NCBI RefSeq assembly: GCF_023073335.1
Contig: NZ_JADPJG010000019.1
Span: 1-64,000 of the forward strand
Direction of reading: 5' to 3'
DNA: 64,000 nucleotides
Source of the DNA: Bradyrhizobium sp. 21
GTDB lineage: Bacteria > Pseudomonadota > Alphaproteobacteria > Rhizobiales > Xanthobacteraceae
Shown: piece by piece, positions 9,633-46,634 of the stretch
How positions within the stretch are numbered: position 1 is the stretch's first letter
How the letters are laid out: every line of letters begins with the position of its first letter
Translations under genes and position numbers: made by a program
Notes under the pieces: model-generated
Database searches by the model: none
The model's input: only the letters and a program-made list of their open reading frames with translations
Told to the model about the DNA's origin: nothing

Positions 9633-11255
9633 ATGATCCGCCTCGATAACGTCAGCAAGCAAGCCGGCCACCAGATCCTGTTCATCGAAGCTTCCGCCGC
9701 CCTTAACAAGGGCGAGAAGATCGGGCTCGTCGGCCCGAACGGCGCCGGAAAGACCACGCTGTTCCGGATGATCGCCGGTGAGGAACTGCCCGACGAGGGG
9801 CAGGTTTCGACCGATCGCGGCATCACCATCGGCTATTTCAACCAGGATGTCGGCGAGATGGCCGGGCGCAGCGCCGTGGCCGAGGTCATGGACGGGGCAG
9901 GGCCGGTGAGTGCGGTGGCGGCCGAGTTGCACGAGCTCGAAACCGCGATGGCCGATCCCGACAAAGCCGATCAGATGGACGAGATCATCGCGCGCTACGG
10001 CGAGGTGCAGCACGCGTTCGAAGAGCTCGACGGCTACGCGCTCGACGGCCGTGCGCGCGAGGCGCTGTCCGGCCTCGGCTTCAGCCAGGAGATGATGGAC
10101 GGCGACGTCGGAAAACTCTCCGGCGGCTGGAAGATGCGCGTGGCGCTTGCGCGCATCCTGCTGATGCGCCCCGACGTCATGCTGCTCGACGAGCCGAGCA
10201 ACCATCTTGATCTCGAAAGCCTGATCTGGCTCGAGAAGTTTTTGCACGATTACGAAGGCACGCTGCTGATGACCTCGCATGACCGCGAGTTCATCAACCG
10301 TGTGATTTCGAAAGTGGTCGAGATCGATTCGGGCTCGCTGACGACCTACGCCGGCGATTACGAGTTCTACGAGCAGCAGCGGGCGCTGAACGAGAAGCAG
10401 CAGCAGGCGCAGTTCGAGCGCCAGCAGGCCATGCTCGCCAAGGAGATCAAGTTCATCGAGCGCTTCAAGGCGCGCGCGTCTCATGCAGCTCAGGTACAGA
10501 GCCGGGTGAAGAAGCTCGACAAGATCGAGCGGGTCGAGCCGCCGCGCCGCCGCCAGACGGTGGCGTTCGACTTCCTGCCGGCGCCGCGCTCGGGCGAGGA
10601 CGTCGTGGCGCTGAAGAATGTCCACAAAGGCTATGGCAGCAAGCGGATCTATGACGGCCTCGACTTCATGATCCGCCGCCGCGAGCGCTGGTGCGTGATG
10701 GGCGTCAACGGCGCGGGCAAGTCGACCCTGCTCAAGCTCATTGCCGGCGCGAGCGAGCCGGATCAGGGCACCGTGGCGGTCGGCGGCAGCGTCAAGATGG
10801 GCTATTTCGCCCAGCACGCCATGGACCTGCTCGACGGCGAGCACACGGTGTTCCAGTCGCTGGAAGAACAGTTTCCGACCGCAGGGCAGGGATCACTGCG
10901 CGCGCTCGCCGGCTGTTTCGGCTTCTCCGGCGACGACGTCGAGAAGCGCTGCCGTGTGCTGTCAGGCGGCGAGAAGGCGCGCCTCGTGATGGCCAAGATG
11001 CTGTTCGATCCGCCGAACTTCCTGGTGCTGGACGAGCCGACCAACCATCTCGACCTCGCCACCAAGGAGATGCTGATCAATGCGCTGTCGGATTTCGAGG
11101 GCACCATGCTGTTCGTCTCGCATGATCGCCATTTTCTCAGCGTCCTGTCCAACCGCGTGCTGGAGCTGACGCCGGAGGGCATCCACCAGTTCGGGGGCGG
11201 CTACACGGAATATGTCGCGCGGACCGGGCAGGAAGCGCCGGGGTTGCGGAGCTAG
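9633..11255 (+). CDS. ABC-F family ATPase (ribosome-associated type)
   Basis: A 540-residue cytosolic protein with two ATPase domains and no membrane segment. Domain 1 has Walker A GPNGAGKTT, signature LSGGWKMRVALARIL and Walker B MLLDEPSNHLDLES; domain 2 has GVNGAGKSTL, LSGGEKARLVMAKML and FLVLDEPTNHLDLATKE. The linker between them is charged and helical (about residues 240-315), as in ABC-F factors that act at the ribosomal E site. Subfamily (EttA, Uup, YbiT or another) cannot be settled by eye. The in-frame upstream extension to 9516 looks non-coding; the ATG at 9633 starts at the conserved MIRLDNVSK. Its stop overlaps that of the convergent phosphodiesterase gene. Confidence 0.92.
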   Translation: MIRLDNVSKQAGHQILFIEASAALNKGEKIGLVGPNGAGKTTLFRMIAGEELPDEGQVSTDRGITIGYFNQDVGEMAGRSAVAEVMDGAGPVSAVAAELHELETAMADPDKADQMDEIIARYGEVQHAFEELDGYALDGRAREALSGLGFSQEMMDGDVGKLSGGWKMRVALARILLMRPDVMLLDEPSNHLDLESLIWLEKFLHDYEGTLLMTSHDREFINRVISKVVEIDSGSLTTYAGDYEFYEQQRALNEKQQQAQFERQQAMLAKEIKFIERFKARASHAAQVQSRVKKLDKIERVEPPRRRQTVAFDFLPAPRSGEDVVALKNVHKGYGSKRIYDGLDFMIRRRERWCVMGVNGAGKSTLLKLIAGASEPDQGTVAVGGSVKMGYFAQHAMDLLDGEHTVFQSLEEQFPTAGQGSLRALAGCFGFSGDDVEKRCRVLSGGEKARLVMAKMLFDPPNFLVLDEPTNHLDLATKEMLINALSDFEGTMLFVSHDRHFLSVLSNRVLELTPEGIHQFGGGYTEYVARTGQEAPGLRS

Positions 11256-12259
11256 TTCTTGCTCTTGCTCTTTCCCTTGCCTGTTCCCTTGCCTGCGATC
11301 GTGGCGATTGCCTCGATCTCGTTGGTCCAGATCCCGCCGGAATAGCCTTGCGGGAGCCGGGCGAACAGCTCCGGCGTATCGATGCCGGTCGAGAACTCGC
11401 CTCCACTGTAGGGACCGAGCACGAACACCGCGCTGTTCGCGCCGTCCATGCGCGCGAGGAAGCGGTCAGGCCAACCCCATAGAAAGGGCGCGACGTTGAT
11501 CGGCACCAGCACCATCGCGTTCCGGCAGGCTGCCGGCACCAGGCCGGTCCAGCCGTAGCCGATATAGCCGATCAGGCAGCTTCGGATTGCCGCGCGCGAG
11601 ATCGTGCGAACTGCCGGGGTGAGGCGGCGGATCATGTCGATGGGCTCCTCGCCGCCATAAACCATGATCGTCCGGCGGCGCTCGGCCGGCAGCGCGTTCA
11701 ACACTGTGGCAAGTTTGTCGCCTTCGTGCACGTCGCGGCTCTTCACGTTGATGAGGAGCTTCTTGTCAGGGAAGGCGGCGAACACCTCCGACAATGTCGG
11801 CATCATCCCGATGCCTTTGCCACGAAACGGAAACGTCTTGCTGCCGTCGGCGGTGTAACCATAGCCGATGTCCAGCAGCTTCAGCCTCGCCATGCCTTGC
11901 TCGCGCGTCACGCCGTGGCCATCAGTGCGGCAATCGAGCGTCCAGTCGTGGAAGACGGCAAACTCGCCGTCGGTGGTCGGGTGCACGTCGAGCTCGACCA
12001 CGTCCGCGCCGGCGTCGAAGCTTGCCCGCATCGAGCGAACAGTATTCTCCAGATAATCGTGTGTCGGCGGCAACATGCGTGCGGCGGTGCAGGTGTCGTT
12101 CTTCACATCGCGCTCATCGAAGCGCTGCGCCATGCCGCGATGGGCAAGCAGCTGTGGCTTGCCATCACGACGAGGCGCCAGCAGACTCGTGTTGTTGACG
12201 TAGACGCCCAAGGCGACGGCGATGATGGCTGCCGTCGCGACTCTCAGTTTCGTGCCCAC
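11252..12259 (-). CDS. Glycerophosphodiester phosphodiesterase family protein
   Basis: A 335-residue protein with an N-terminal membrane anchor or uncleaved signal (residues 5-25). The GDPD core is seen as AHRGM (H40), LENTVRS, ADVVELDVH and FHDWTLDCRT, which supply the catalytic histidines and the metal-binding glutamates. It probably hydrolyses glycerophosphodiesters in the periplasm. The C-terminal tail is Gly/Lys/Ser repetitive. It starts with GTG at 12259, with GGGAAG just upstream. Its stop overlaps the convergent ABC-F gene by four bases. Confidence 0.85.
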   Translation of the reverse strand: MGTKLRVATAAIIAVALGVYVNNTSLLAPRRDGKPQLLAHRGMAQRFDERDVKNDTCTAARMLPPTHDYLENTVRSMRASFDAGADVVELDVHPTTDGEFAVFHDWTLDCRTDGHGVTREQGMARLKLLDIGYGYTADGSKTFPFRGKGIGMMPTLSEVFAAFPDKKLLINVKSRDVHEGDKLATVLNALPAERRRTIMVYGGEEPIDMIRRLTPAVRTISRAAIRSCLIGYIGYGWTGLVPAACRNAMVLVPINVAPFLWGWPDRFLARMDGANSAVFVLGPYSGGEFSTGIDTPELFARLPQGYSGGIWTNEIEAIATIAGKGTGKGKSKSKN

Positions 12260-12406
12260 CGATTCTTCCCCATTCCGTGACCACCGTCGGCGGCGTTTGG
12301 GGTTGATTTGCGGCGATCGTCACGCAAGGTGACGGCTCCCCGCCGTCCGGCTTGAACGGTCCGATGCCGCCCGCTACGCTGCTTCAAAAATGGGAGCGAA
12401 ACAGCC

Positions 12407-12511
12407 ATGCAGCAGCTCAGGATCGGCGACATCACCATCGATGCGGTGATCGAGCGGGCGGGGCCGTGGCGGCGGCCGCAGGTCAACACCAGCTTCAATG
12501 TGCGTGGGTAA
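12407..12511 (+). pseudogene. N-terminal fragment of an MBL-fold metallohydrolase gene
   Basis: The reading frame MQQLRIGDITIDAVIERAGPW plus four more residues (ending at CAG, 12479-12481) matches the start of the MBL-fold hydrolase whose C-terminal half lies at 19040-19483. After that codon the sequence changes character and a stop follows nine codons later. The zinc motif HxHxDH and about 90 central residues are absent from the window. A GGGAG-type ribosome site precedes the ATG, so the fragment keeps the original start region. It marks the left edge of the 6.5-kb inserted segment. Matching is from memory of the family and from the complementary C-terminal fragment. Confidence 0.72.
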
Positions 12512-12645
12512 GCCGATCGTGTGCACCCCGGAAGACGCCTTTCCGGCGCTCCCAGTTTTCCGTGAGATGGATCACAGTTGAAAATGAATTCTTCGTTCAT
12601 CTTTGGGGTCCGGCGAAGTGTTGGTCCCATTCTCGCTTCGCTGAG

Positions 12646-12681
12646 GCTCCGCCACCCCTTAAAAGGAGGCGGGGCTTTTTT
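12646..12681 (+). terminator. Rho-independent terminator
   Basis: An eight-base stem (GCTCCGCC pairing with GGCGGGGC, one G-U pair) with an AT-containing loop is followed by six T residues on the + strand. It lies downstream of the truncated MBL-fold fragment and upstream of the secreted-protein gene, so it would stop read-through from the left. Confidence 0.7.
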
Positions 12682-12762
12682 ACAGCCACTTCCACACTGA
12701 ATCCTGAACTGTGATTTGGCCCACAGAACGCACTGCGTTTTTCCAGCATGTTCATGTCACGA

Positions 12763-12797
12763 GCTGCATTACGCAGCCGCACAATGGGACCACGCAA
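12763..12797 (+). promoter_or_regulatory. Leader with hairpin, shared with the gene starting at 15013
   Basis: The 35 bases before the ATG contain a perfect stem-loop (GCTGC, loop ATTAC, GCAGC) followed by CACAATGGGACCA. The complementary-strand gene that starts at 15013 has almost the same leader: stem GCTGC/GCAGC with loop ATCAC and then ACAATGGGACCA. GGGACC is the only purine-rich element before the start, so the hairpin lies just upstream of the likely ribosome site and could affect initiation. Confidence 0.5.
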
Positions 12798-13226
12798 ATG
12801 AACAAGCTTTATACGTCGCTCTCGATTGCACTCGTCGCCCTTTCATTCGGCTTCGGCGCAACTTCCGCCAACGCCGGTGAGAAGAGGGGATTTTTTGATA
12901 TCGACATCAACATTGGCAACCACGATCATCGTCCGGGCGCCGACCGCCCAGACCGTCCATTTCCCCGACCGCCTCAGGCAAAACCAGCGCCGCAGACAAA
13001 CGCGGGGCTTTGCCCGCAAGGTCTGGTTTGGCGCGAACGTTTTGACGGAGATACCGTTTGCGTGCTTCCCGGCGAGCGCGACGCCAATCGCCGCAAACGT
13101 GGTCTTTCAGTTGGCGCCGCGACAGCATGCCCGCAAGGGCTGGTATGGCGCGAACGATTCGACGGGGACACGGTTTGCGTCACTCCGCTCGAACGTGACG
13201 AAAATCGTCGTCGTCGGGGCTTGTGA
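12798..13226 (+). CDS. Small secreted protein with two CPQGLVWRERFDGDTVCV repeats
   Basis: A 142-residue exported protein. Residues 1-26 are a signal peptide ending ATSANAG. Next comes a His/Asp/Pro-rich segment (about 27-65), then two copies of the motif CPQGLVWRERFDGDTVCV, each followed by a charged ERDxNRRxR tail. I recall related C-x2-G-x-V-WRE-x3-GD-x-VCV-x-P motifs in secreted proteins of other bacteria; no function is known to me. Each unit has two cysteines that could pair. The C-terminal 80 codons are about 96% identical in DNA to the gene at 14073, while the N-termini are unrelated. After the stop the frame stays open for 46 further codons. Confidence 0.75.
   Translation: MNKLYTSLSIALVALSFGFGATSANAGEKRGFFDIDINIGNHDHRPGADRPDRPFPRPPQAKPAPQTNAGLCPQGLVWRERFDGDTVCVLPGERDANRRKRGLSVGAATACPQGLVWRERFDGDTVCVTPLERDENRRRRGL
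12979..13222 (+). repeat. Long direct repeat, copy 1 (double-motif module)
   Basis: This 244-bp stretch recurs at 14338-14581 with about ten mismatches by my reading. It covers exactly the double CPQGLVWRERFDGDTVCV module. Most differences lie in the last 50 bases. Confidence 0.9.
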
Positions 13227-13913
13227 ACGCGACGATTCCACACACGCGACGACAGGAAGGTTGCTTCAAGCCAGCGGCAAGCCGCGATCCAGTTCGTGAA
13301 CAAGAGCGGCAGCGTCACGACTCTGGACGAAGCCAAAAGCGCCAGGCTCAGTGCACACGATGTTTCGTGACTGATTGCGCGCCTGAGTTAGATGTTAAGG
13401 GGCCGCCCCACGGGCGGCCTCCTCGTTTTCCCACCGTACTCTTGTTTGCTTGCGCAGAAGCAAACGAGCATTCACGCGCCTCATCAAATAACGCGCGGCG
13501 CGAAAGCCGGGTGTTGTTCCGGAAGGGACGATAGGGCGAGATTTTCATCACCAGCGCCGCCATGTGGTCGCTGCAGCGGTCCGCCCCTTGTTGCGCATCG
13601 GCGGCCATGTGTTTCGACCAGCTCAAGTCCGACGCAGTGTAGCTTTGCCGTTGTGCGCGGTCAGCATCTCCTTCCATTCCGCCGTGGCGGCGCTGTGTAG
13701 GGATCCCACTCCGATGCCGATTGACAACATCGCGAAACCGCAGCATTTTACAGCGATAGTGTTGGGCACAACCGCCATGGACGATAAAAACGTCTGCGCC
13801 ACCGCCAAAGCGGGCCAAGTCGCCATCTCGACGCGGCAGCTTGAACGTCGCCCCGGTCGCTCTACTGATACCGCTGTTGCCGGGGCCCTTCTGAAATCCG
13901 CTTTATCAACTTC
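13227..13913. other. Gene-poor stretch between the two motif-repeat genes
   Basis: The first 140 bases continue the frame of the upstream gene past its TGA (46 codons ending at a second TGA near 13370), with residues such as AAIQFVNKSGSVTTLDEAKS; this may be a lost C-terminus or chance. A terminator follows at 13401-13425. From 13430 to 13913 I see only overlapping open frames on both strands, none with a ribosome site and convincing composition. Confidence 0.5.
13401..13425 (+). terminator. Rho-independent terminator
   Basis: Perfect eight-base inverted repeat GGCCGCCC/GGGCGGCC with a three-base loop, followed by a C/T-rich run ending TTTT. A closely related GGCCGCC/GGCGGCC hairpin follows the paralogous gene at 14073, so terminator and gene seem to have been duplicated together. 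Confidence 0.7.
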
Positions 13914-14069
13914 ATGGCCGTCAAGCCCGAAGACTATTACGCGACCTATCCACTTGGGCTGTTTTTCGACGACGTCGAGCACATTCAACAGGTAGTCGAT
14001 TTCCTCGGGGGACCGATTGAAGCCTCCAGCAGCTCCAGATTGCATAACACTTATTCAACTACGGAGTGA
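13914..14069 (+). CDS. Possible small protein upstream of the second motif-repeat gene
   Basis: A 51-residue frame beginning MAVKPEDYYATYPLGLFFDD and ending three bases before the next ATG, so the two could be co-transcribed. The frame is open upstream of the ATG for another 14 codons with protein-like residues, so this may equally be the C-terminal remnant of a larger gene. No ribosome site is evident. I do not recognise the family, and an open frame on the other strand overlaps it. Confidence 0.3.
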   Translation: MAVKPEDYYATYPLGLFFDDVEHIQQVVDFLGGPIEASSSSRLHNTYSTTE

Positions 14070-14072
14070 GCC

Positions 14073-14588
14073 ATGTTACAAAAGCTTGTCGGCACCGTAT
14101 TGCGGCCTTTTGGAAAGATTTTCTGCAAAGTAGGCATTCTGTGTTTCGGAGCGATGCTGTTATCTTCGCCAACGATAGCTCGGCAATGTTATTGGGATGG
14201 CTCATCACCGATCTGCAGGGGGCACTGCCCCGCAGACTACGACACCGTCAAAGTCAAGGCCTGCCTGAACGGCTACAAAGTGCAATGCTGCGAAAAGCTG
14301 GGATCCGTGACATATATCGACAAGGCTGCGCCCCAGACAAAACCAGCGCCGCAGACAAACGCGGGGCGTTGCCCGCAAGGTCTGGTTTGGCGCGAACGTT
14401 TTGACGGAGACACCGTTTGCGTGCTTCCCGGCGAGCGCGACGCCAATCGCCGCAAGCGTGGTCTTTCAGTTGGCGCCGCGACAGCATGCCCGCAAGGACT
14501 GGTATGGCGCGAACGATTCGACGGGGACACGGTTTGCGTCACCCCGCTCGAACGCGACGCAAATCGCCGTCGTCGAGGCCTGCCATGA
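14073..14588 (+). CDS. Secreted cysteine-rich protein with CPQGLVWRERFDGDTVCV double module
   Basis: A 171-residue exported protein. An N-terminal signal (about 1-36) is followed by a six-cysteine domain at about 38-80: CYWDGSSPICRGHC, then CLNGYKVQCC. That pattern (W-DG-x-P-x-C-x-G-x-C ... G-KV-x-CC) resembles small disulfide-knot domains. The rest is the same double WRE module as in the gene at 12798, nearly identical at DNA level. GGAG lies seven bases before the ATG. The sequence shows a two-domain architecture made by joining a new N-terminal domain to a duplicated C-terminal module. Function unknown; extracellular or periplasmic location likely. Confidence 0.75.
   Translation: MLQKLVGTVLRPFGKIFCKVGILCFGAMLLSSPTIARQCYWDGSSPICRGHCPADYDTVKVKACLNGYKVQCCEKLGSVTYIDKAAPQTKPAPQTNAGRCPQGLVWRERFDGDTVCVLPGERDANRRKRGLSVGAATACPQGLVWRERFDGDTVCVTPLERDANRRRRGLP
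14338..14581 (+). repeat. Long direct repeat, copy 2 (double-motif module)
   Basis: Second copy of the 244-bp module at 12979-13222. The sharp left boundary lies inside both reading frames, in a Pro/Gln-rich linker (KPAPQTNAG). Confidence 0.9.
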
Positions 14589-14686
14589 AGACGACGATTC
14601 GGCTTCGATCCAATCGAGATGAAAATCGATTGGAAAATGAAGGGGCGAGCACCAGCGGGTCAAAGTACGCGTCATAAAATGAAAGA

Positions 14687-14706
14687 GGCCGCCCACTGAG
14701 GCGGCC
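14687..14706. terminator. Bidirectional terminator between convergent genes
   Basis: Inverted repeat GGCCGCC/GGCGGCC with a six-base loop, between the stop of the gene ending at 14588 and the convergent gene ending at 14726. The flanking bases extend the stem (GAGGCCGCC against GGCGGCCCCTC). It lacks a strong T-run on either strand. Confidence 0.6.
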
Positions 14707-14725
14707 CCTCTCGAATGCTTGCGGT

Positions 14726-15013
14726 TCAGTGGGAGCCGTACTTCTGCGTGCAGCTCCTGACGCCCTGCTGCTTCTCCGCATCATTGCGCCCGAAAATCTG
14801 GTAAGTGTGGAGGCAATCCATGTAGCCCTTGTTGCTCATCCAGCTATACGGGCTGGCGGTACCCACCTGTGCGTACTGTTGCGGCGCTGTGCCCTGCTTG
14901 ACCTCGGCGACCCTGCGGACAACGTCGCTCAAAAACCCTGCGTTAGCGGAAGTAGCGCCGAAGCCGATGGAGAGGCCGACGAGTGTGATAGCGATTGTGC
15001 GAGAGATGTTCAT
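14726..15013 (-). CDS. Small secreted protein sharing a signal peptide with the gene at 12798
   Basis: A 95-residue exported protein. The signal peptide MNISRTIAITLVGLSIGFGA (then TSANAG) is clearly related to that of the 12798 protein, including the identical GFGATSANAG end. The mature part has two cysteines and is unrelated to the other. The leader before the ATG is also shared. I do not recognise the family. It lies on the opposite strand from its neighbours and ends at a bidirectional terminator. Confidence 0.7.
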   Translation of the reverse strand: MNISRTIAITLVGLSIGFGATSANAGFLSDVVRRVAEVKQGTAPQQYAQVGTASPYSWMSNKGYMDCLHTYQIFGRNDAEKQQGVRSCTQKYGSH

Positions 15014-15050
15014 TGCCTTGGTCCCATTGTTCCGGGCTGCGTGATGCAGC
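15014..15050 (-). promoter_or_regulatory. Leader with hairpin, shared with the gene at 12798
   Basis: Read on the minus strand, a GCTGC/GCAGC stem-loop (15036-15050, loop ATCAC) precedes ACAATGGGACCA and the ATG. The order and sequence match the leader of the 12798 gene, indicating that leader and signal-peptide region were copied as a unit. Confidence 0.5.
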
Positions 15051-15310
15051 TCCATGTAGCAACCATGCTGGAACTGGTTGGAAACATCTGTGATCCGATT
15101 CACACTGGGGCTATGTGTTACTGGCCCGCCGATATGGACAGCACCAAACCAACTAGAGGAAGTTTGAACGGGCAAGTTTCCGCAGCGCTCGTCCTGTGAC
15201 CTTTCGAAGTAAATCACGGCATCTGGCTCGCTGGCGGTCGCCTGGCCTTGGTTGAACTTTTGCATACCTCCAGAGGGGCCCCGCGTGCAGCAAGCGAAGA
15301 ACGGGTTTTG
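15051..15310. other. Gene-free stretch upstream of the 95-residue protein
   Basis: No coding frame with a plausible start is seen. It probably holds the promoter of the minus-strand gene at 15013; I could not assign -35/-10 elements. TGTGATCCGATTCACA at about 15089 is an imperfect palindrome. Confidence 0.4.
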
Positions 15311-15480
15311 GATTTTGAAGATGGCCGTGCAAAAAATCGCCCTGTTGAACTAACGGTGCAATGAACAAGGGCGAATACGCGGCCTGGGAGGCGGAGAACG
15401 CCAAAGGCCATAACCCACCGGGCACCGTGTTTCGCGACAGTTGCCTGCCGATCGTCGAGGCCGGGCAGGCGCTGCTGGTG
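15311..15480 (+). pseudogene. Partial copy of the ompA-end/MBL-fragment junction
   Basis: This 170-bp stretch repeats 18990-19159 with a few mismatches. It contains the last 50 or so bases of the OmpA-like gene (with its stop damaged) followed by the first 40 codons of the MBL-fold C-terminal fragment (MNKGEYAAWEAENAKG...). Homology stops abruptly after codons for ALLV. It is a dead copy. Confidence 0.8.
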
Positions 15481-15482
15481 AA

Positions 15483-15567
15483 CGATGAAGTGCGGGTCGA
15501 TGCCGGTGTTCTTGAACCAGCTCAGCTTAACATTGCTGGTGAACTCGGCGCCGATGTTGGAGACAAT
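15483..15567 (-). pseudogene. Gene debris encoding an IVSNIGAEFTSNVKLSWF-type segment
   Basis: Directly after the copied MBL fragment, the minus strand reads IVSNIGAEFTSNVKLSWF and then KNTGIDPHFIV without stop, a strongly protein-like stretch that is open only here. It looks like a fragment of an unrelated gene, perhaps from an outer-membrane or exported protein; I cannot name it. Confidence 0.35.
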
Positions 15568-15877
15568 CTAACCGGGCTTGCCGCGCCGTTGGACAATTGC
15601 TGTCAGTTCACGCGTTACGCGACGTCGCGAGATCGAGGATGTCCAGGCTCGACGTCGTCTGCAATCCCATCCTCCGCAAATCAATACGAGAATGGATCAA
15701 GCCCGCCAACGCCGATCTACAGCATGCCAAATCAAACGATATCGACTCCAAACCACTTAACAGTTGCTGCGCAAAAACTTCGGGTGTTCAACCTGTTAAA
15801 GGCTCACCGGGGAGGCAGTCAAAAGACACCACCTGCCGGCTCGCATTCATTGACCTTCCGGTTCCCTGCGCATCGGA
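15568..15877. other. Stretch with no recognisable gene
   Basis: About 310 bases without a credible coding frame. The base composition is lower in GC than the flanking chromosome, and the plus-strand frames lack starts with ribosome sites. It may be decayed gene material, consistent with fragments on its left. No insertion-sequence ends or transposase residues were recognised. Confidence 0.4.
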
Positions 15878-16084
15878 TCAGCTCCTGGCATACAATTCCA
15901 AAAATCCACATTCCACGCAGCGCTCGGCTACAATTGGAATGCAGGCCCTCCCTTTTACCTTAACATTGCCCATCCAGTTCTTGTCAGGTGGCCCCTCGTA
16001 CCAACTACTGGCTTGGACAGAACCATACCCGACATCTGGAATAAACCCGGGCTGCAGTTCACCTGCACACTTCAAACAGGGCAT
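15878..16084 (-). CDS. Small zinc-ribbon-like protein (CxxC...CxxCG, ending ELYAR)
   Basis: A 68-residue protein with two cysteine pairs, MPCLKCAGELQPGFIPDVGY at the start and ERCVECGFLELYARS at the end. The order CxxCxGxxxxGFIPD...CxxCGxLELYA matches a family of small bacterial zinc-ribbon proteins of unknown function that I remember. The ATG at 16084 has GGGAG seven bases upstream, better than the upstream ATG at 16198. It is cytosolic (no signal) and thus unlike its exported neighbours. The four cysteines are intact, so it is probably functional. Confidence 0.68.
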   Translation of the reverse strand: MPCLKCAGELQPGFIPDVGYGSVQASSWYEGPPDKNWMGNVKVKGRACIPIVAERCVECGFLELYARS

Positions 16085-16283
16085 CGAGTGGCTCCCAATT
16101 TTCTCGCGACAAGTCGAACTTCGAGAAATGAGTGCAATATACGCATCCATTTCGCGATTGAACTTCTCCAAACTTTTTATCAGTTCCAGATTGCGCAAAA
16201 TAGACTTTCACGTAGAATTACACCGTTTGCGAAGCTCTCTTTCAATTCTACCAAGTTCCGATTTTCCAACGGAGTATTGCGCT

Positions 16284-16523
16284 ATGAAGTATGTCCTGAG
16301 TACCATCATTGCATTATCATTGAGCGGGACGCTGGTGAGCGGCGCTCTAGCCTACGACAACCCGGCCACGGGAGGCGGATCGATCGGTGGAGCTCACCCT
16401 GAGAAATTCAATCAGGGCCCGGGATCTCTCCCTTCGCACCGGATTCCCGGAACTAACCAGCGACGCTGTCCAGCCTATTACTATCTGGATCGGTACAGCC
16501 GCCGCTGCTATCGAAGGTTGTGA
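16284..16523 (+). CDS. Small secreted protein, C-terminal cysteine pair
   Basis: A 79-residue exported protein with a signal peptide MKYVLSTIIALSLSGTLVSG ending at ALA, a Gly/Pro-rich middle and a C-terminal CPAYYYLDRYSRRCYRRL. GGAG lies about 12 bases before the ATG. Family not recognised. It fits the theme of this segment: short, exported, basic, with paired cysteines. Confidence 0.6.
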   Translation: MKYVLSTIIALSLSGTLVSGALAYDNPATGGGSIGGAHPEKFNQGPGSLPSHRIPGTNQRRCPAYYYLDRYSRRCYRRL

Positions 16524-16936
16524 CTTCATTTTATGGTATGATCGTGTCCGGGTCATGGAAATAGTAAATCGCAATAGGCATCCCGCCAGACGGCTTGGGC
16601 GTCTCGGTCTAACGATATCTTTTTTCAAAAGCCGAATCGCCCCTGCGATTTGACGCGTAGTGATGTGGCTGGATCACCTCAAATCGATCTATTAGCCGCG
16701 GGATTGTCGGTGGGCCGCTTCCTGCTAAGACGACGCCCTTCGTGTTGTGAGAGAAGATGTTTTCGTGATCATCAGGTTTGGTTCAGAGGCTTGCTTTTCA
16801 ATAATGAAAGACGAAGCCTCGAATGCATCAGTGTCAGAGTATCCCGTCACATTGCAATCGGTTGCCCGCAGACGCCTCGCCCACCAAGTTCGGCGGTTGA
16901 TGCCAAGACAAAAGTGTTTCTGACAGGAGAAGTATC
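16524..16936. other. 413-bp gene-free stretch
   Basis: No frame longer than about 95 codons has a plausible start or composition. An AGACG/CGTCT inverted repeat near 16590-16606 is followed about 20 bases later by TTTTTT; it could be a weak terminator for the upstream gene. The rest presumably contains the promoter of the gene at 16937. Confidence 0.45.
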
Positions 16937-17323
16937 TTGAAAAAATCTCTTTCCGCATTGAGCGTCACCGGATTTATCTGCGCGACGATATTGTTGGGGC
17001 CGGCCGCAGCCTACGCAGGCTGCAGAGAGAGTTTTTGCGTCAGCGGTCGCGACATAGGCAAACAACATGTAGTGAATTTCACCAACAGCAACTCGAACGT
17101 CCATCATTACAATGCGCGGGTTAATCCGCCTCTCAACATCGTTGGTAGCGTCTTTTCCAGCCAGGTTGAGGTGGGCCGGAACGTGCGGAGCTTCACAATT
17201 ATCGACCTGCCATCCACGCGGCCAGTTACGATCGAATATTCAATACAAGCGTGCGCCTATGGCGGATTTCCTCCGCATTCGAATTGCGGACCATGGACAA
17301 CATTTCATCACGCGATTCAGTGA
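16937..17323 (+). CDS. Secreted four-cysteine protein, tandem family member 1
   Basis: A 128-residue exported protein with a signal peptide (residues 1-27) and a mature domain containing four cysteines: GCRESFCVSGRD at the start and IQAC...NCGPW at the end. Conserved features shared with the gene at 17719 are HxVxFT, SNVxHYN, VGRN, IEYSIQAC and GGFPPHSNCGPW. The start is a TTG with AGGAGAAG upstream; no other start gives a signal peptide. Two disulfides in the periplasm or outside are likely. I do not know the family or a function. First of three adjacent paralogues. Confidence 0.72.
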   Translation: MKKSLSALSVTGFICATILLGPAAAYAGCRESFCVSGRDIGKQHVVNFTNSNSNVHHYNARVNPPLNIVGSVFSSQVEVGRNVRSFTIIDLPSTRPVTIEYSIQACAYGGFPPHSNCGPWTTFHHAIQ

Positions 17324-17343
17324 TAGTTGCGTGGGGTAGCTAG

Positions 17344-17679
17344 ATGCCCGGATATCGACACGCGGATATTCTGCCGTCGCTCGCAAGCCTTGCCTTCGCT
17401 GCTTTGGCTGTTTCGCCAACTGCCGCCCTCCCGGTTGCAAACAAGGTTTCTGCATGCATGGGCAGGATCTGGGCAATATCCACTCGGGTGATATTCGCCC
17501 ACGAGGGCTCAGCGCCGTTCTACAAGGTGAAGGCAGCGGGCCGCTCCTTCACGACCCACTTTCGTGTGTTTGAATTCGAGATCGGCAGCGCTCGCGCGGT
17601 GACCTCTCAGTACCAAATCCAGGCATGCGGACCGGGTACTTGCGGGCCCTGGATGAGCTTTTCGCACACCACCAGATAG
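17344..17679 (+). pseudogene. Frameshifted tandem family member 2
   Basis: The single open frame (111 codons) keeps a signal-like start (LASLAFAALAVSPTAA) and a family-like end (QIQACGPGTCGPWMSFSHT) but loses the first cysteine motif. In the neighbouring frame, between about 17433 and 17490, the missing motif reads GCKQGFCMHGQDLGNIHSGD, just like the paralogues. Two compensating indels therefore separate the pieces. The C-terminal motif also lacks the GGFPPHSN insert. The gene is probably decayed, or makes an altered protein. Confidence 0.65.
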
Positions 17680-17718
17680 CCCGCGTCAGGAAACATCGGA
17701 CCGAAGGACGATCCAGAA

Positions 17719-18090
17719 ATGAACTTCAATGTAATTCGCGTCTTTGGCGTGACACTGCTCAGTGCCATGGTTCTCGCGACACCAGCCTCCGCCGGTTGCA
17801 AGGAAGGATTTTGCGTCAACGGTCATGACAACGGCCGTCGACATTCGGTCGATTTCACCAGCACCTATAGCAACGTAGATCACTATAACGTCCGCTCGCC
17901 TTGGCTTATCGCCAACGGCGGGGGGCACCAATTCGAAGTCGGACGAAACGAGCGCGGCTTTTCGTTCGGCTCTCTCCCAACGTCGCGCCCGCTGGATATT
18001 GAGTATTCCATTCAGGCCTGCAGCCGCGGTGGTTTCCCGCCACATTCCAACTGCGGTCCCTGGGTGACGTTCTATCACACCATGCGTTGA
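17719..18090 (+). CDS. Secreted four-cysteine protein, tandem family member 3
   Basis: A 123-residue exported protein: signal peptide MNFNVIRVFGVTLLSAMVLA ending TPASA, then GCKEGFCVNGHDNGRRHSVD and a C-terminal IEYSIQACSRGGFPPHSNCG. Four cysteines are conserved with member 1, and overall about half of the mature residues match. The stop overlaps an alternative TTG start of the OmpA-like gene, whose preferred ATG follows 15 bases later, so the two are likely co-transcribed. Function unknown. Confidence 0.75.
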   Translation: MNFNVIRVFGVTLLSAMVLATPASAGCKEGFCVNGHDNGRRHSVDFTSTYSNVDHYNVRSPWLIANGGGHQFEVGRNERGFSFGSLPTSRPLDIEYSIQACSRGGFPPHSNCGPWVTFYHTMR

Positions 18091-18104
18091 AGGGTGTAAC
18101 GGCC

Positions 18105-19043
18105 ATGATGAAGCATAAGGTGCTCGCCTGCCTGTTCTTCCTTGGCGTTCCTTTTGCGGCGCGCGCTGATGACGCCGCAGGATGCAAGGACAATGCATTG
18201 ACGGGCCGGTACGAAGGTTCGTCAATCGCCTACTGCAAGGCGAAGGATTTCGACGAACTGGTCTTCCTGAAGACCCCGCACGACTACGGGGCTTTGCTGG
18301 ACCGGAACGCTCTGAAAGACCGTTCCGGTCCAGAGTGGCTTAAGAAAACGGGTAAGACGAACGAGATCCGCTATGAACTGAAGGATAACACCTCGGCCCT
18401 TGAAGCGGCGTCGAACTATGAAGCACGGCTCAAATCGAACGGTTTCAAAGTCGTTTTCTCCTGCGTGGATCAGGAGTGTTTGAGCGGCAGCGTGACGGGA
18501 ACGTACGTTCTGGGCGAGCAACTTGATCCCACGAATGTCGTTTCAACCGCCTATGGTGATCATGCGCGCTATTTGCTGGCTCAACGCGACGGCGCAACCG
18601 TCGGGGTCCTGATTGGCGAGGACAAGGAAAAGTCCGTCGCCTTTGTTCGCATCGTTGAAGATAAGCCGATACAGAACAAGATCGGTGATGCCCTGGCCAC
18701 GCGAGGCAGCGTCAACATTTATGGAATCCTGTTCGATTTCGACAAAGACGTAGTGAAACCGGAATCGAAGCCTGCGCTGGACGAGATCGCCAAGGCACTC
18801 TCGGACAAACCACAAATGCGGCTCAAGATCATCGGCCACACCGACAACAAGGGCGGCGAAGCCTACAATCTTGATCTGTCGCAGCGCCGCGCCGCTAACG
18901 TGCTGGCCGCACTGGCGGAAGGCTATGGAATTGATAGGGCAAGGCTTTCATCAGAGGGGGCCGGTTTGTCAAAACCGATAGCGTCGAACGATTCTGAAGA
19001 TGGCCGTGCAAAAAATCGCCGTGTTGAACTGGCGGTGCAATGA
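18105..19043 (+). CDS. OmpA-family outer-membrane/peptidoglycan-binding protein
   Basis: A 312-residue exported protein. A signal peptide (about 1-21) precedes an N-terminal domain of about 180 residues with four cysteines (ending FSCVDQECLSG) that I cannot name with confidence. The C-terminal 110 residues are an OmpA domain: ILFDFDKDVVKPESKPALDE, then IIGHTDNKGG and LSQRRAANVLAAL, closing NRRVELAVQ. That domain binds peptidoglycan. It follows the four-cysteine proteins at operon spacing. Its stop overlaps the first ATG of the MBL-fold fragment, so it marks the right edge of the inserted segment. Its last 50 bases are duplicated at 15311. Confidence 0.88.
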   Translation: MMKHKVLACLFFLGVPFAARADDAAGCKDNALTGRYEGSSIAYCKAKDFDELVFLKTPHDYGALLDRNALKDRSGPEWLKKTGKTNEIRYELKDNTSALEAASNYEARLKSNGFKVVFSCVDQECLSGSVTGTYVLGEQLDPTNVVSTAYGDHARYLLAQRDGATVGVLIGEDKEKSVAFVRIVEDKPIQNKIGDALATRGSVNIYGILFDFDKDVVKPESKPALDEIAKALSDKPQMRLKIIGHTDNKGGEAYNLDLSQRRAANVLAALAEGYGIDRARLSSEGAGLSKPIASNDSEDGRAKNRRVELAVQ

Positions 19044-19483
19044 ACAAGGGCGAATACGCGGCCTGGGAGGCGGAGAACGCCAAAGGCAACAAGCCGCCGG
19101 GCACCGTGTTTCGCGACAATTGCCTGCCGATCGTCGAGGCAGGTCAGGCGCTGCTGGTGGACGACGACTATGCGCTCGACGACACCGTGACGTTGACGCT
19201 GACGCCAGGGCATTCGCCCTGCCACTGCTGCGTGAACATCTCGAAAGGGCAACGCGCTGTGGTGACTGGCGATCTCATGCATCACCAGATCCAGTGCCGC
19301 GAGCCGGACTGGTCGGCCAAGCCGGACTGGGATGCCAGGCAGTCCGCCGTGTCGCGGCGAAAATTCTTTGCCTCCGTCGCCGACACCGACACGCTGATCC
19401 TGCCGATTCATTTTCCGGCGCCGACGGTCGGGCTGATCAAGCCGCTCGGCGCCGCCTTTGACTACCGTTTCAAGCGGGAGTAG
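19040..19483 (+). pseudogene. C-terminal fragment of the MBL-fold metallohydrolase gene
   Basis: The 147-codon frame carries the rear half of an MBL-fold hydrolase: LTPGHSPCHCCVNI (metal ligand H), VVTGDLMHHQIQC (metal ligand D) and LILPIHFPAPT (last ligand H). The HxHxDH motif and N-terminus are missing here; the N-terminus lies at 12407. Its ATG is an internal methionine of the ancestral gene and lies within the ompA stop codon. It might still be translated by coupling, but it could not bind two metals. Confidence 0.8.
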
Positions 19484-19504
19484 GGCGACCGTTCGTCGGA
19501 CGGT

Positions 19505-20593
19505 TTAGTAAGTGTAGAACATCCGCTGGATCTCCTTGGTGTCGGTCGTCTTGGTCAGCGCCAGCATCAGCAAAATGCGCGCCTTTTGGGGATTCAGCGT
19601 ATCCGAGACGACGAAGTCATGTTCGTCGTCCTTGGCTTCCCCGTTGCGCGCGACGATGCCGTTGCCGACGCGGCTGCTCCGGACGATAATGACCCCCTTC
19701 TTGCGGGCTTCGTCGAGCGCCGGCTCGACCGCGGGCCGGGCAAGGCTGCCATCACCCACGCCGGCGTGCACGATCCCCTTGGCCCCTGCGGCGACAAACG
19801 CGTCGAGCGCGACCCGGTTCATGTTGGCGTAGCCATAGACGATATCGACCTGCGGCAGGGTATCGAGGCTGGAGACGTCAAATTCGGAGTCCGCCGTGTG
19901 TCGTCGGGTCGATTGACGATAGAAGTACGGCTTGTTTCCCTGCATGTAGCCGAGAAAGCCGAGCTCAGGGGTGCGGAAAGTGTCCGCCGTCGAGGTGTTG
20001 TTCTTGGTGACGTCGCGCGCCGCGTTGATCTGATCGTTGAGGGCAACGAGCACGCCCTTGCCGACGGCCTCTTCGCTGCCTGCGAGGATCACCGCATTAA
20101 AGAGGTTGATCGGCCCATCCGCGCTGATCGCCGTCGATGGCCTCATCGCGCCGACGACGACGACAGGCTTCTTGCTCTTCACCACCAAGTCCAGGAAATA
20201 GCTGGTTTCCTCGATCGTGTCGGTCCCGTGCGTGATCACGATCCCGTCCACGTCGTCCTGCGTGAGGAGCGTGTTGACGCGCTTTGCGAGCTTCAGCCAG
20301 TAGTCGTTGTTCATGTTCTCGCTGGCGATCTGGAAAACCTGTTCGCCCTTGACGTTGGCCACCGTTTTCAGCTCGGGGACGGCGTTCAGGAGAGTCTCGA
20401 TGCCGACCGTGGCTGCGGTATAACCGACCACAGTGGTGCTGCTCGCACCGCTGCCGGCGATCGTGCCGCCGGTGGCCAGGACCATGACGTTGGGCAGACC
20501 GGGGCCCCTTGCATTCGCAACGTCAAGACTGATGAGCAGTGCAAACACGCCCATTGTCGCCATCATGTGATCACGCACTCGAAACTGCCACAT
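19505..20593 (-). CDS. Exported type II L-asparaginase
   Basis: A 362-residue asparaginase/glutaminase. The catalytic threonines are in LATGGTIAGSG and VITHGTDTIEETSYF; SADGPINLFNA is also typical. The N-terminus has a positively charged start and a hydrophobic stretch ending ANA, so it is probably periplasmic, as for type II enzymes. It hydrolyses asparagine to aspartate and ammonia. I place the start at the ATG at 20593, with AAAGGG eight bases upstream; ATGs at 20566 and 20563 are alternatives. It sits alone between convergent and same-strand neighbours. Confidence 0.93.
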   Translation of the reverse strand: MWQFRVRDHMMATMGVFALLISLDVANARGPGLPNVMVLATGGTIAGSGASSTTVVGYTAATVGIETLLNAVPELKTVANVKGEQVFQIASENMNNDYWLKLAKRVNTLLTQDDVDGIVITHGTDTIEETSYFLDLVVKSKKPVVVVGAMRPSTAISADGPINLFNAVILAGSEEAVGKGVLVALNDQINAARDVTKNNTSTADTFRTPELGFLGYMQGNKPYFYRQSTRRHTADSEFDVSSLDTLPQVDIVYGYANMNRVALDAFVAAGAKGIVHAGVGDGSLARPAVEPALDEARKKGVIIVRSSRVGNGIVARNGEAKDDEHDFVVSDTLNPQKARILLMLALTKTTDTKEIQRMFYTY

Positions 20594-20834
20594 CTCGACC
20601 ACCCTTTGCTCGAAGCCTCGTCGATGCGCCCCAATTCGCCCAGCACTCCATGATCGGTCAGCGGACGCCTTCTGTCTAGGGTGGCGATTCTTTCGGATGG
20701 TTTGGTTTGGGCGCGGACCCCGGAAACACAGACGCGAATGGCCGGGACATCTAGCGCGAAGACGCGCTTCTGCCCGGCCATGACGCAGTTCGTTTGGCGA
20801 TTGCCCGCTAAAGAAGCAGCGAATTTGCGGCGCC

Positions 20835-21083
20835 TTACGCGCCGACTTCGCACTTCTTCATGAAGCTGTTCTTGGCGGCGCCGGCGAGCGGCTTGCCGTC
20901 GGCGCTGACGGCCTTCGGCGTGCACGCGTCCGCCTTGCACTTCTTCATGAACGAGGTCTTGGCGGCGCCGGCGAGAGCCTTGCCGTCCTTGCCGACCGCC
21001 TTGCTCTCGCAGGTATCGTCCGCGAAGGCCGAACCCGCCGCAAAGGTGGCAACGATCGCAGCCAGGAAAATCCGCTTCATCAT
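20835..21083 (-). CDS. PsiF-repeat small exported protein
   Basis: An 82-residue exported protein with a signal peptide (1-20, ending SAFA) and two repeats of the pattern C-x2-KAV-x2-DGK-x-LAGAAK-x-SFMKKC. This is the PsiF repeat, named after a phosphate-starvation-inducible protein of E. coli; its molecular function is unknown. GGGAG lies seven bases before the ATG at 21083. Confidence 0.85.
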   Translation of the reverse strand: MMKRIFLAAIVATFAAGSAFADDTCESKAVGKDGKALAGAAKTSFMKKCKADACTPKAVSADGKPLAGAAKNSFMKKCEVGA

Positions 21084-21187
21084 GATTGTCTCCCTAAACC
21101 AAAAAGATGGCGAACGGATTGGAGCCGTGAATCGTGGCGCAATCAAGCAGGATCGGCGCGCATCATCGATTTTTCGATGGGCGCATC

Positions 21188-35778: not shown

Positions 35779-35841
35779 TTCTGGGCCCCGGCTCAGCAGC
35801 GCACCGCTGAAGAAACGCTGCGCTGCGTCCGGGGCACGAGG
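35779..35841 (-). repeat. Dispersed intergenic repeat, copy R2 (inverted relative to R1)
   Basis: On the minus strand it reads CTCGTGCCCCGGACGCAGCG at the start and GAGCCGGGGCCCAGAA at the end, matching R1 and the copies at 46.5 kb. Together with R1 it brackets the low-GC two-gene cassette in opposite orientations. Confidence 0.75.
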
Positions 35842-38200: not shown

Positions 38201-38860
38201 ATGGAGCGGGAGAAGACTGGCGTCAGGAAGCGATCCGCCAAGGCCGCACAACGCGGGGCGCCGGTGGCCAAGCCGTCTGCCGCCAAGCCGTCTATCGTCA
38301 AGCTGTCTGTTGCCAAGCCGCCTTTTACCAAGCCGCCTTTTACCAAGCCGCCTTTTACCAAGCCGCCTTTTACCAAGCCGTCGCGATCCGCGCCGCGCGC
38401 TGCACCGGTTGCAAAGCCGGCCCGGCCAAGGCTGCTGGCCTCGGCCGATCTCTCAAGTTCGCTCGGCTATCGCATCCGGCGTGCGCAGCTCTGGGTCTTC
38501 AAGGATGTCAGCCGGCGGCTCGCCGCCTTCGACATCAGCCCGGCGCAGTTCTCCGTCCTGTCGGTGATCGGGGCCAATCCAGGCGTCAACCAGCTCGCCA
38601 TCGCTCAATCCTTGTCGATCGAGCGGGCGGGCCTCGGGCGGCTGGTGGATCATCTGGAGCGGCGCGGCCTGGTGCAGCGTTCGGCCTCCGCCATCAACCG
38701 CCGCTACTATGTGCTGTATCTGACGCAGACCGGCGCCGCGCTCCTCGGCCGGCTGCGGCCGGCGATCGCCGAAAGCGAAAAGGCCCTCGCGGCAAAGCTC
38801 GGGTCTGGCGCGTTCAAGCAATTGCAGCGGGCGCTGTCGATTTTCCTTGGCGATGACTGA
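38201..38860 (+). CDS. MarR-family regulator with a repetitive KPPFT N-terminal tail
   Basis: A 219-residue protein. Residues 1-85 are a basic, low-complexity tail rich in Lys-Pro and Ala-Pro, including four consecutive KPPFT units. Residues 90-210 form a MarR winged-helix domain: FDISPAQFSVLSVIGANPGV, LAIAQSLSIERAGLGRLVDH and LVQRSASAINRRYY. Basic tails of this sort can add non-specific DNA binding. The ATG at 38201 is chosen, without a strong ribosome site. The gene next to it (TRAP binding protein) is on the same strand 174 bases later and could be a target. Confidence 0.8.
   Translation: MEREKTGVRKRSAKAAQRGAPVAKPSAAKPSIVKLSVAKPPFTKPPFTKPPFTKPPFTKPSRSAPRAAPVAKPARPRLLASADLSSSLGYRIRRAQLWVFKDVSRRLAAFDISPAQFSVLSVIGANPGVNQLAIAQSLSIERAGLGRLVDHLERRGLVQRSASAINRRYYVLYLTQTGAALLGRLRPAIAESEKALAAKLGSGAFKQLQRALSIFLGDD
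38312..38380 (+). repeat. 15-bp tandem repeat inside the MarR gene
   Basis: Four consecutive 15-base units (ACCAAGCCGCCTTTT, the first with G for A) plus a nine-base partial unit. Three more diverged units lie just upstream. The period is a multiple of three, so copy-number change would lengthen or shorten the protein tail without a frameshift. Confidence 0.92.
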
Positions 38861-46490: not shown

Positions 46491-46634
46491 TCCTCGTGCC
46501 CCGGACGCAGCGCAGCGTCCCTTTGACGGTGCGCTGCAGAGCCGGGGCCCGTATTGCCGAGGACCGTGTCCGTGATTTCTGGGTCCCGGCTCTGCGCAGC
46601 AGCGTTTCACGCTGCAGCGCGTCCGGGACACGAG
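46491..46634. repeat. Dispersed intergenic repeat, two inverted copies R3a/R3b
   Basis: R3a (about 46491-46550, plus strand) and R3b (about 46577-46634, minus strand) are copies of the element at 34133 and 35779, facing each other across 26 bases. Together they could form a long hairpin between the binding-protein gene and minC. Confidence 0.75.

Follow-up and report, generated by a model that had tools for sequence, protein, structure and literature searches.

Rhizobia have genomic islands and other horizontally acquired accessory regions. Here we describe a locus in Bradyrhizobium sp. 21 in which the middle of a metallo-beta-lactamase (MBL)-fold hydrolase gene has been replaced by an insert that ends in an ompA-like gene. 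Like rhizobial islands, the insert has low GC content, rare genes, a sporadic presence and a transposase fragment. It differs from them in being small, mosaic and decayed, with no tRNA, no attachment repeats and, in the frames scanned, no integrase match. The hydrolase can be set beside the N-acyl-homoserine lactone lactonases AidB and YtnP (NCBIfam NF047979 and NF047919). An intact relative of the gene matches these models partially (E 5.8e-18 and 5.1e-17), but its 65.1 and 62 bits fall far under the cut-offs of 360 and 425 and place it in neither family; moreover, the metal site is missing from the Bradyrhizobium sp. 21 copy. An MBL-fold protein without that site would not be expected to act as a hydrolase. 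All positions refer to the window, which is the whole stretch analyzed: nucleotides 1 to 64,000 of contig NZ_JADPJG010000019.1.

The two fragments that flank the insert are the ends of one MBL-fold hydrolase gene. A search with the C-terminal half of the protein gave 241 confirmed relatives in a named genome collection. We used the best 80 of the 241 as named loci; 78 of these are titled Bradyrhizobium, and the other two are Frankia sp. RB7 and one Bradyrhizobiaceae bacterium. Together with 29 further loci, and with some genomes represented twice, they formed a set of 109 (L008 to L116) that we compared by blastn with positions 11001-20700. The match to the left part ended at 12480-12482 in 107 of the 109 loci; blastn did not find the left part in the other two (L077 and L086). 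The match to the right part resumed at 19041-19052, mostly at 19044. Both fragments are collinear with one intact gene in relatives, and in 78 of the 80 named loci one part starts 420-435 nucleotides (nt) from the start of the other. The intact protein of one relative (L009, 291 residues) matches Pfam Lactamase_B at E 1.3e-20. In the intact relatives aligned, the metal-site motif HLHIDH lies inside the stretch of about 358 nt (119-120 codons) that is gone here. Neither fragment holds an HxHxDH motif, and the C-terminal half alone scores 18 bits in Lactamase_B against the Pfam cut-off of 22.7. Because the metal site is in neither half, we conclude that the hydrolase is a pseudogene in this strain.

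A preliminary description of the window had read the two same-facing fragments as one hydrolase gene and the event as a replacement rather than a clean insertion. The relatives' loci, with their near-constant spacing, bear out the first claim, and the alignments, which show the lost middle, support the second. It had put the loss at about 90 central codons including the HxHxDH region; the motif is indeed lost, but the loss is larger than that. The alignment with other Bradyrhizobium genomes that it proposed yielded the intact gene and placed the breakpoints at 12481/12482 and 19043/19044. Two outcomes had been named as contrary to its reading, the same arrangement throughout the genus and fragments matching different proteins. 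No other locus with the arrangement was seen, and the fragments match one gene.

How widely is this gene kept? The C-terminal half was matched at E<=1e-30 in 102 of 146 genus genomes (the source genome is included in this and later genome counts unless other genomes are specified). Among the 101 other matching genomes, our reading of the match table gives 99 with an orthologue-like copy (at least 75% identity) and 2 (G045 and G065) with only paralogue-like matches at 44-47% identity. The remaining 44 genomes have no match at that threshold, and 43 of them belong to the 137 genomes with a completeness of 90% or more and a contamination of 5% or less. With 44 of 146 genomes lacking a match, the hydrolase gene is common but dispensable. 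In one of the matching genomes (G085, contig 9, 41466-41905), the hydrolase is matched in two pieces that overlap by a few bases. This suggests a frameshift and is probably an independent loss.

The surroundings of the gene also vary. Of the 80 named loci, 75 allow the distance between the hydrolase and an ABC-F-like gene upstream of it to be measured; values run from 69 to 8080 nt, so that DNA comes and goes in the interval upstream of the hydrolase. Among these 75, four Bradyrhizobium loci (L011, L030, L043 and L048) have an interval of about 8 kb, compared with 69-76 nt in twelve others. Some of the 80 loci are short, and neighbors may fall outside their DNA; the neighbor names used here (ABC-F, GDPD and asparaginase) were read from the list of open reading frames (ORFs) and not from a family search.

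Perhaps the C-terminal half is still made, through coupling to the ompA stop codon, and is kept for a noncatalytic role? Its in-frame ATG overlaps that stop codon (ATGA) and the frame is open for 147 codons. Nor is its omega raised: the median is 0.063 against 91 distinct relatives (identical rows and matches not spanning the fragment were dropped) and 0.079 among 4089 pairs of relatives. At conserved sites it carries 2 private changes, and 21 of the 91 relatives carry as many or more. However, the nearest relatives lie at a synonymous divergence (dS) of at least 0.37; hence much of the divergence may be older than the break, and the power of the omega test is low. The half also lacks the metal site and is one codon short: it reads VNIS where the six intact proteins aligned read VNIFS. 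Furthermore, a second copy of the ompA/hydrolase junction, at 15361, has the same overlap of ATG and stop yet is cut off; the hydrolase parts of the two junction copies show 6 changes against 2 (two-sided p 0.29). We consider continued production for such a role improbable.

The insert itself stands out by composition. Its GC content is 0.558 against 0.639 in the rest of the window, and it is the lowest-GC stretch among sliding windows of 6561 nt at 250-nt steps (mean 0.630, standard deviation 0.023). The lower GC reported in the preliminary description thus holds, and a check by codon position shows that GC at third positions (GC3) is shifted too. Seven of the eight small cargo ORFs have a GC3 of 0.52-0.67 and the ompA-like gene has 0.645, while three flanking genes have 0.82-0.86. 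Eight cargo proteins (including the OmpA-family protein and excluding P2; Table 1) had no relative at E<=1e-4 in any of the 80 named-locus neighborhoods. When the insert DNA was searched against 265 genus genomes, only the hydrolase copy and the transposase fragment were covered among the matches listed beyond the source genome. The genome searches score part of the first-look candidates in each genome (14 for the P family in the order, 11 for it in the class, 8 for the OmpA protein in the order and 2 for the insert DNA), and absences from them are therefore not proofs. Atypical composition and sporadic presence, the marks of a genomic island, are both seen, save for a near-native GC3 in one small ORF. 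We conclude that the insert is a foreign, horizontally acquired mosaic and that most of its exported cargo proteins are rare and undescribed. As a description, the earlier phrase "accessory island for extracytoplasmic proteins" fits the composition, the absence from 80 of 80 neighborhoods, the rarity and the leader-like N termini, which were judged by eye.

Other searches of the locus gave little. Phage records held no DNA match to it; a viral contig search with A1 found 28 stretches that fitted a pattern, none of which was confirmed; and Rfam gave nothing at gathering score in 11000-20700. Pfam found nothing in eight of nine leftover frames and PetM at E 0.4 in the ninth. Matches of cargo proteins to OB_RNB, GYF_2, PetM and DUF3551 (E 0.0023-0.19) fell under the curated Pfam cut-offs and were rejected. 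A literature search of titles and abstract openings found no publication on the locus; we do not claim that it is absent from print.

One sharp block of foreign composition would also be expected of a site-specific genomic island that used the hydrolase gene as its attachment site. Yet no integrase match was found among the nine cargo proteins (Pfam and NCBIfam) and nine further frames (Pfam only), a set that is part of all the frames, and the window contains no tRNA. The outer boundaries have no end repeats beyond chance: their longest common word is 7 nt, direct or inverted, and a shared word of 7 nt or longer turned up in 204 of 300 pairs of 120-nt stretches drawn at random. In addition, target DNA was deleted at the site, and 78 of 80 loci have uninterrupted spacing here. 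Site-specific integration is thus a very unlikely origin.

A second copy of the ompA/hydrolase junction lies inside the insert, differing from the boundary copy at 18990-19167 by 13 of 178 nt. Since positions 15311-15488 hold the finished junction, the insertion preceded the duplication. The copy stops at 15488, where DNA of an IS3-family transposase gene begins. A duplicated junction abutting a transposase fragment indicates that the region was built in steps: replacement, then junction duplication, then shuffling and decay, an order that is partly inferred. These data do not support a single coherent event, and point to a mosaic of several steps with decay. We assigned 10 of the junction-copy changes to copy 1 and 2 to copy 2 (p 0.039) and excluded the one ambiguous difference among the 13; a further assignment was only likely, and four in the OmpA part were made by judgment without an outgroup alignment. 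Faster evolution of copy 1, which these counts suggest, was set aside, given the judgment-based polarizing and the nonsignificant result for the hydrolase part alone (6 against 2).

We wondered if an IS3-family element, or a transposon bounded by insertion sequences (ISs), had brought the cargo and later decayed. The transposase fragment in the insert is real. Of 177 plasmid records matched, the best 20 all match it at 70-77% (E 8e-24 to 2e-7), and 8 of those 20 are annotated as IS3 family transposase; 29 of the 177, outside the best 20, match at 80-90% identity. Three Bradyrhizobium genomes, among the matches listed, match the fragment at 78-79%. However, in the one annotated record compared the match is 158 nt inside a 1157-nt gene, and hence no IS end is present. 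The fragment lies 3 kb inside the insert, beside the duplicated junction and at neither outer boundary, and at those boundaries we found no IS3 terminal inverted repeats or target duplication; end repeats do not exceed chance, and target DNA was lost. The two frames of the fragment have no Pfam match, and the source genome has one other match to it at E<=1e-5, 72% over 119 nt. We give carriage by such an element little credence. The preliminary description, which had seen no transposase, integrase or tRNA boundary, was wrong on the first; it was right about the tRNA and, in the frames scanned, about the integrase.

Could the arrangement be an assembly chimera? The genome is a draft of 7.03 Mb in 38 contigs, analyzed from the assembly alone. 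Nevertheless, both boundaries lie within one contig, and the junction copies differ at 13 of 178 positions. The flanking genes are also hydrolase neighbors in some relatives: 24 of 80 loci have a GDPD-like gene close upstream, 26 have an asparaginase-like gene close downstream, and 7 have both. We regard a chimera as extremely unlikely.

The reading that we favor, and hold to be highly probable, is that illegitimate recombination fixed a mosaic of horizontal origin in a dispensable hydrolase gene and that junction duplication and decay followed. The replacement, the copies and the junction are observed. Foreign DNA ending in an ompA-like gene would have joined the chromosome by illegitimate (non-site-specific) recombination, with loss of the hydrolase middle. 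The new ompA/hydrolase junction would then have been duplicated inside the insert and its copy cut next to the transposase fragment, while genes for exported proteins may have been duplicated, exchanged leaders or decayed. Several observations weigh against this history. The searches turned up no donor carrying the cargo in this order, and the 16-kb surroundings of the closest OmpA relative (L191), tried as a donor block, gave other cargo matches at E 0.23 or worse. The gene at 14726-15013 has a GC3 of 0.78, and the D1 modules described below are not foreign to the genus. The flanking genes are only partly common to relatives, and no same-species genome was among those compared. Finally, the C-terminal half shows no excess of amino acid change, which fits either a young disruption or remaining constraint.

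Table 1. Features of the interrupted hydrolase locus and its insert
Feature	Positions	Strand	Basis or remark
Broken MBL-fold hydrolase, first 25 codons	12407-12481	+	Matches start of relatives' gene
Mosaic low-GC insert replacing about 358 nt of hydrolase gene	12482-19043		Breakpoints within about 2 nt
D1a: signal-peptide-like leader, linker, two C-P-x-G-x-VWRE..D-x-VCV modules	12798-13226	+	DNA repeat with D1b; leader like that of 14726-15013
D1b: different N terminus, same two modules	14073-14588	+	DNA repeat with D1a
Small protein, 95 residues, signal-peptide-like start	14726-15013	-	Source genome only, 1 of 117 genus genomes
OmpA-3'-end/hydrolase junction, second copy (copy 1)	15311-15488	+	93% to 18990-19167
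IS3-family transposase gene, decayed internal fragment without IS ends	15485-15651 (about)	-	DNA similarity
ORF of 106 residues, CxxC pairs	15878-16198	-	Source genome only, 1 of 117 genus genomes; no Pfam match
Small protein, signal-peptide-like start, end CPAYYYLDRYSRRCYRRL	16284-16523	+	ORF list; no Pfam or NCBIfam family
P1, P3 paralogue	16937-17323	+	51% identical to P3
P2, degenerate paralogue	17344-17679	+	Match to P3 changes frame between its two halves
P3, small protein, predicted FN3-like beta sandwich (moderate confidence)	17719-18090	+	Structure prediction
OmpA-family peptidoglycan-binding protein with N-terminal region	18105-19043	+	Stop codon is last triplet of insert
Hydrolase C-terminal half	19044-19483	+	ATG at 19040, in frame, overlaps OmpA stop

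The cargo contains the duplications and gene fragments that had been described from the sequence, both as DNA repeats and as a frame-broken paralogue. A 254-nt stretch of D1a (12970-13223) is 95% identical to 14329-14582 in D1b, and the D1a leader is 74% alike, over 142 alignment columns, to that of the reverse-strand gene at 14726-15013. D1a, with modules like those of D1b and a leader like that of the latter gene, thus appears to be a chimera. Relatives of the D1 module occur at 40-50% identity in 6 other genomes of the 146 genus genomes, with two copies per protein in all six, and also in 2 plasmid records; a Deinococcus plasmid protein has four copies. The module matches no Pfam or NCBIfam family above cut-off. 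The 106-residue protein with CxxC pairs could, as judged by eye, be a zinc ribbon. The protein at 16284-16523 was searched only in the 80 named-locus neighborhoods.

P3 was found in 1 of 146 genus genomes. For the P family, searches of 297 genomes at order level and 385 at class level found members in 3 and 1 genomes, respectively. A distant relative, at 33.7% identity, is on a Mesorhizobium huakuii plasmid. Structure prediction from an alignment of 3 sequences gave an all-beta P3 (best model pLDDT 68.3, pTM 0.59; weakest of five models 47.3). Foldseek returned nothing at E<=0.001 for this model, and its best rows, from E 2.3e-3, were mostly FN3 monobodies. VIA-align placed it on an insulin receptor chain at a top Z of 9.2 (root mean square deviation 2.5 over 85 residues), with FN3 chains in most other rows listed; the program cautions that queries lacking a clear relative typically reach a best Z of 7 to 8. 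P3 may resemble FN3 domain proteins in its predicted fold, but differs from them as a single small domain with conserved cysteines, and it has no Pfam FN3 match by sequence. We take the FN3-like fold as a lead and not as proof.

The protein at the end of the insert is OmpA-like, as first described: it has a C-terminal OmpA domain (Pfam PF00691, E 6.1e-23, 81.4 bits against a cut-off of 27.2). The N-terminal region is only weakly like DUF4892 (E 0.0055, below cut-off). Both that match and one to DUF748 fell under the Pfam cut-offs and were rejected, and none of the best 25 of 39 NCBIfam rows reached its cut-off. The closest relative found, at 55% identity, is in another genus of the order (G315). 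Matches at E<=1e-20 occur in 34 of 98 genus genomes, full-length at no more than 40% identity; a few that cover just the OmpA domain are 45-55% identical.

P1, P2, P3 and ompA share a strand and are separated by short gaps. Most likely they would supply the cell envelope with FN3-like binding proteins that are exported and an OmpA protein anchored to peptidoglycan. A bolder proposal would make the segment an assembly ground for new exported proteins. D1a would then have arisen from a joined leader (upstream DNA and signal peptide) and a cysteine module, and P1-P2-P3 would be an amplified FN3-like cluster read with OmpA as a strain-specific envelope display system. We think this rather unlikely.

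Elsewhere in the window, a reverse-strand gene at 20835-21146 encodes a small protein whose start resembles a signal peptide and which contains SFMKKC and LAGAAK motifs and two similar repeats, the DNA copies being 79 nt long, 87 nt apart and 80% alike. It has the look of a PsiF-repeat protein. Two GC-rich 59-nt sequences at 35783-35841 and 46492-46550 form an inverted pair, 90% complementary and 10.6 kb apart, that looks like a dispersed intergenic repeat. Tandem 15-nt units occupy 38249-38383, with seven overlapping 45-nt copies 64-76% alike to the reference.

Gene loss and islands are ordinary kinds of event, and the interval upstream of this hydrolase often changes. Neither the replacement nor the P family overturns current understanding. 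Since P1-P3 are rare in the genomes searched and match no curated family, they are a candidate new FN3-like envelope protein family in rhizobia. The locus shows in good resolution how a dispensable chromosomal gene was lost when foreign mosaic DNA took the place of part of it, and the copying of the new joint allows the events to be put in order.

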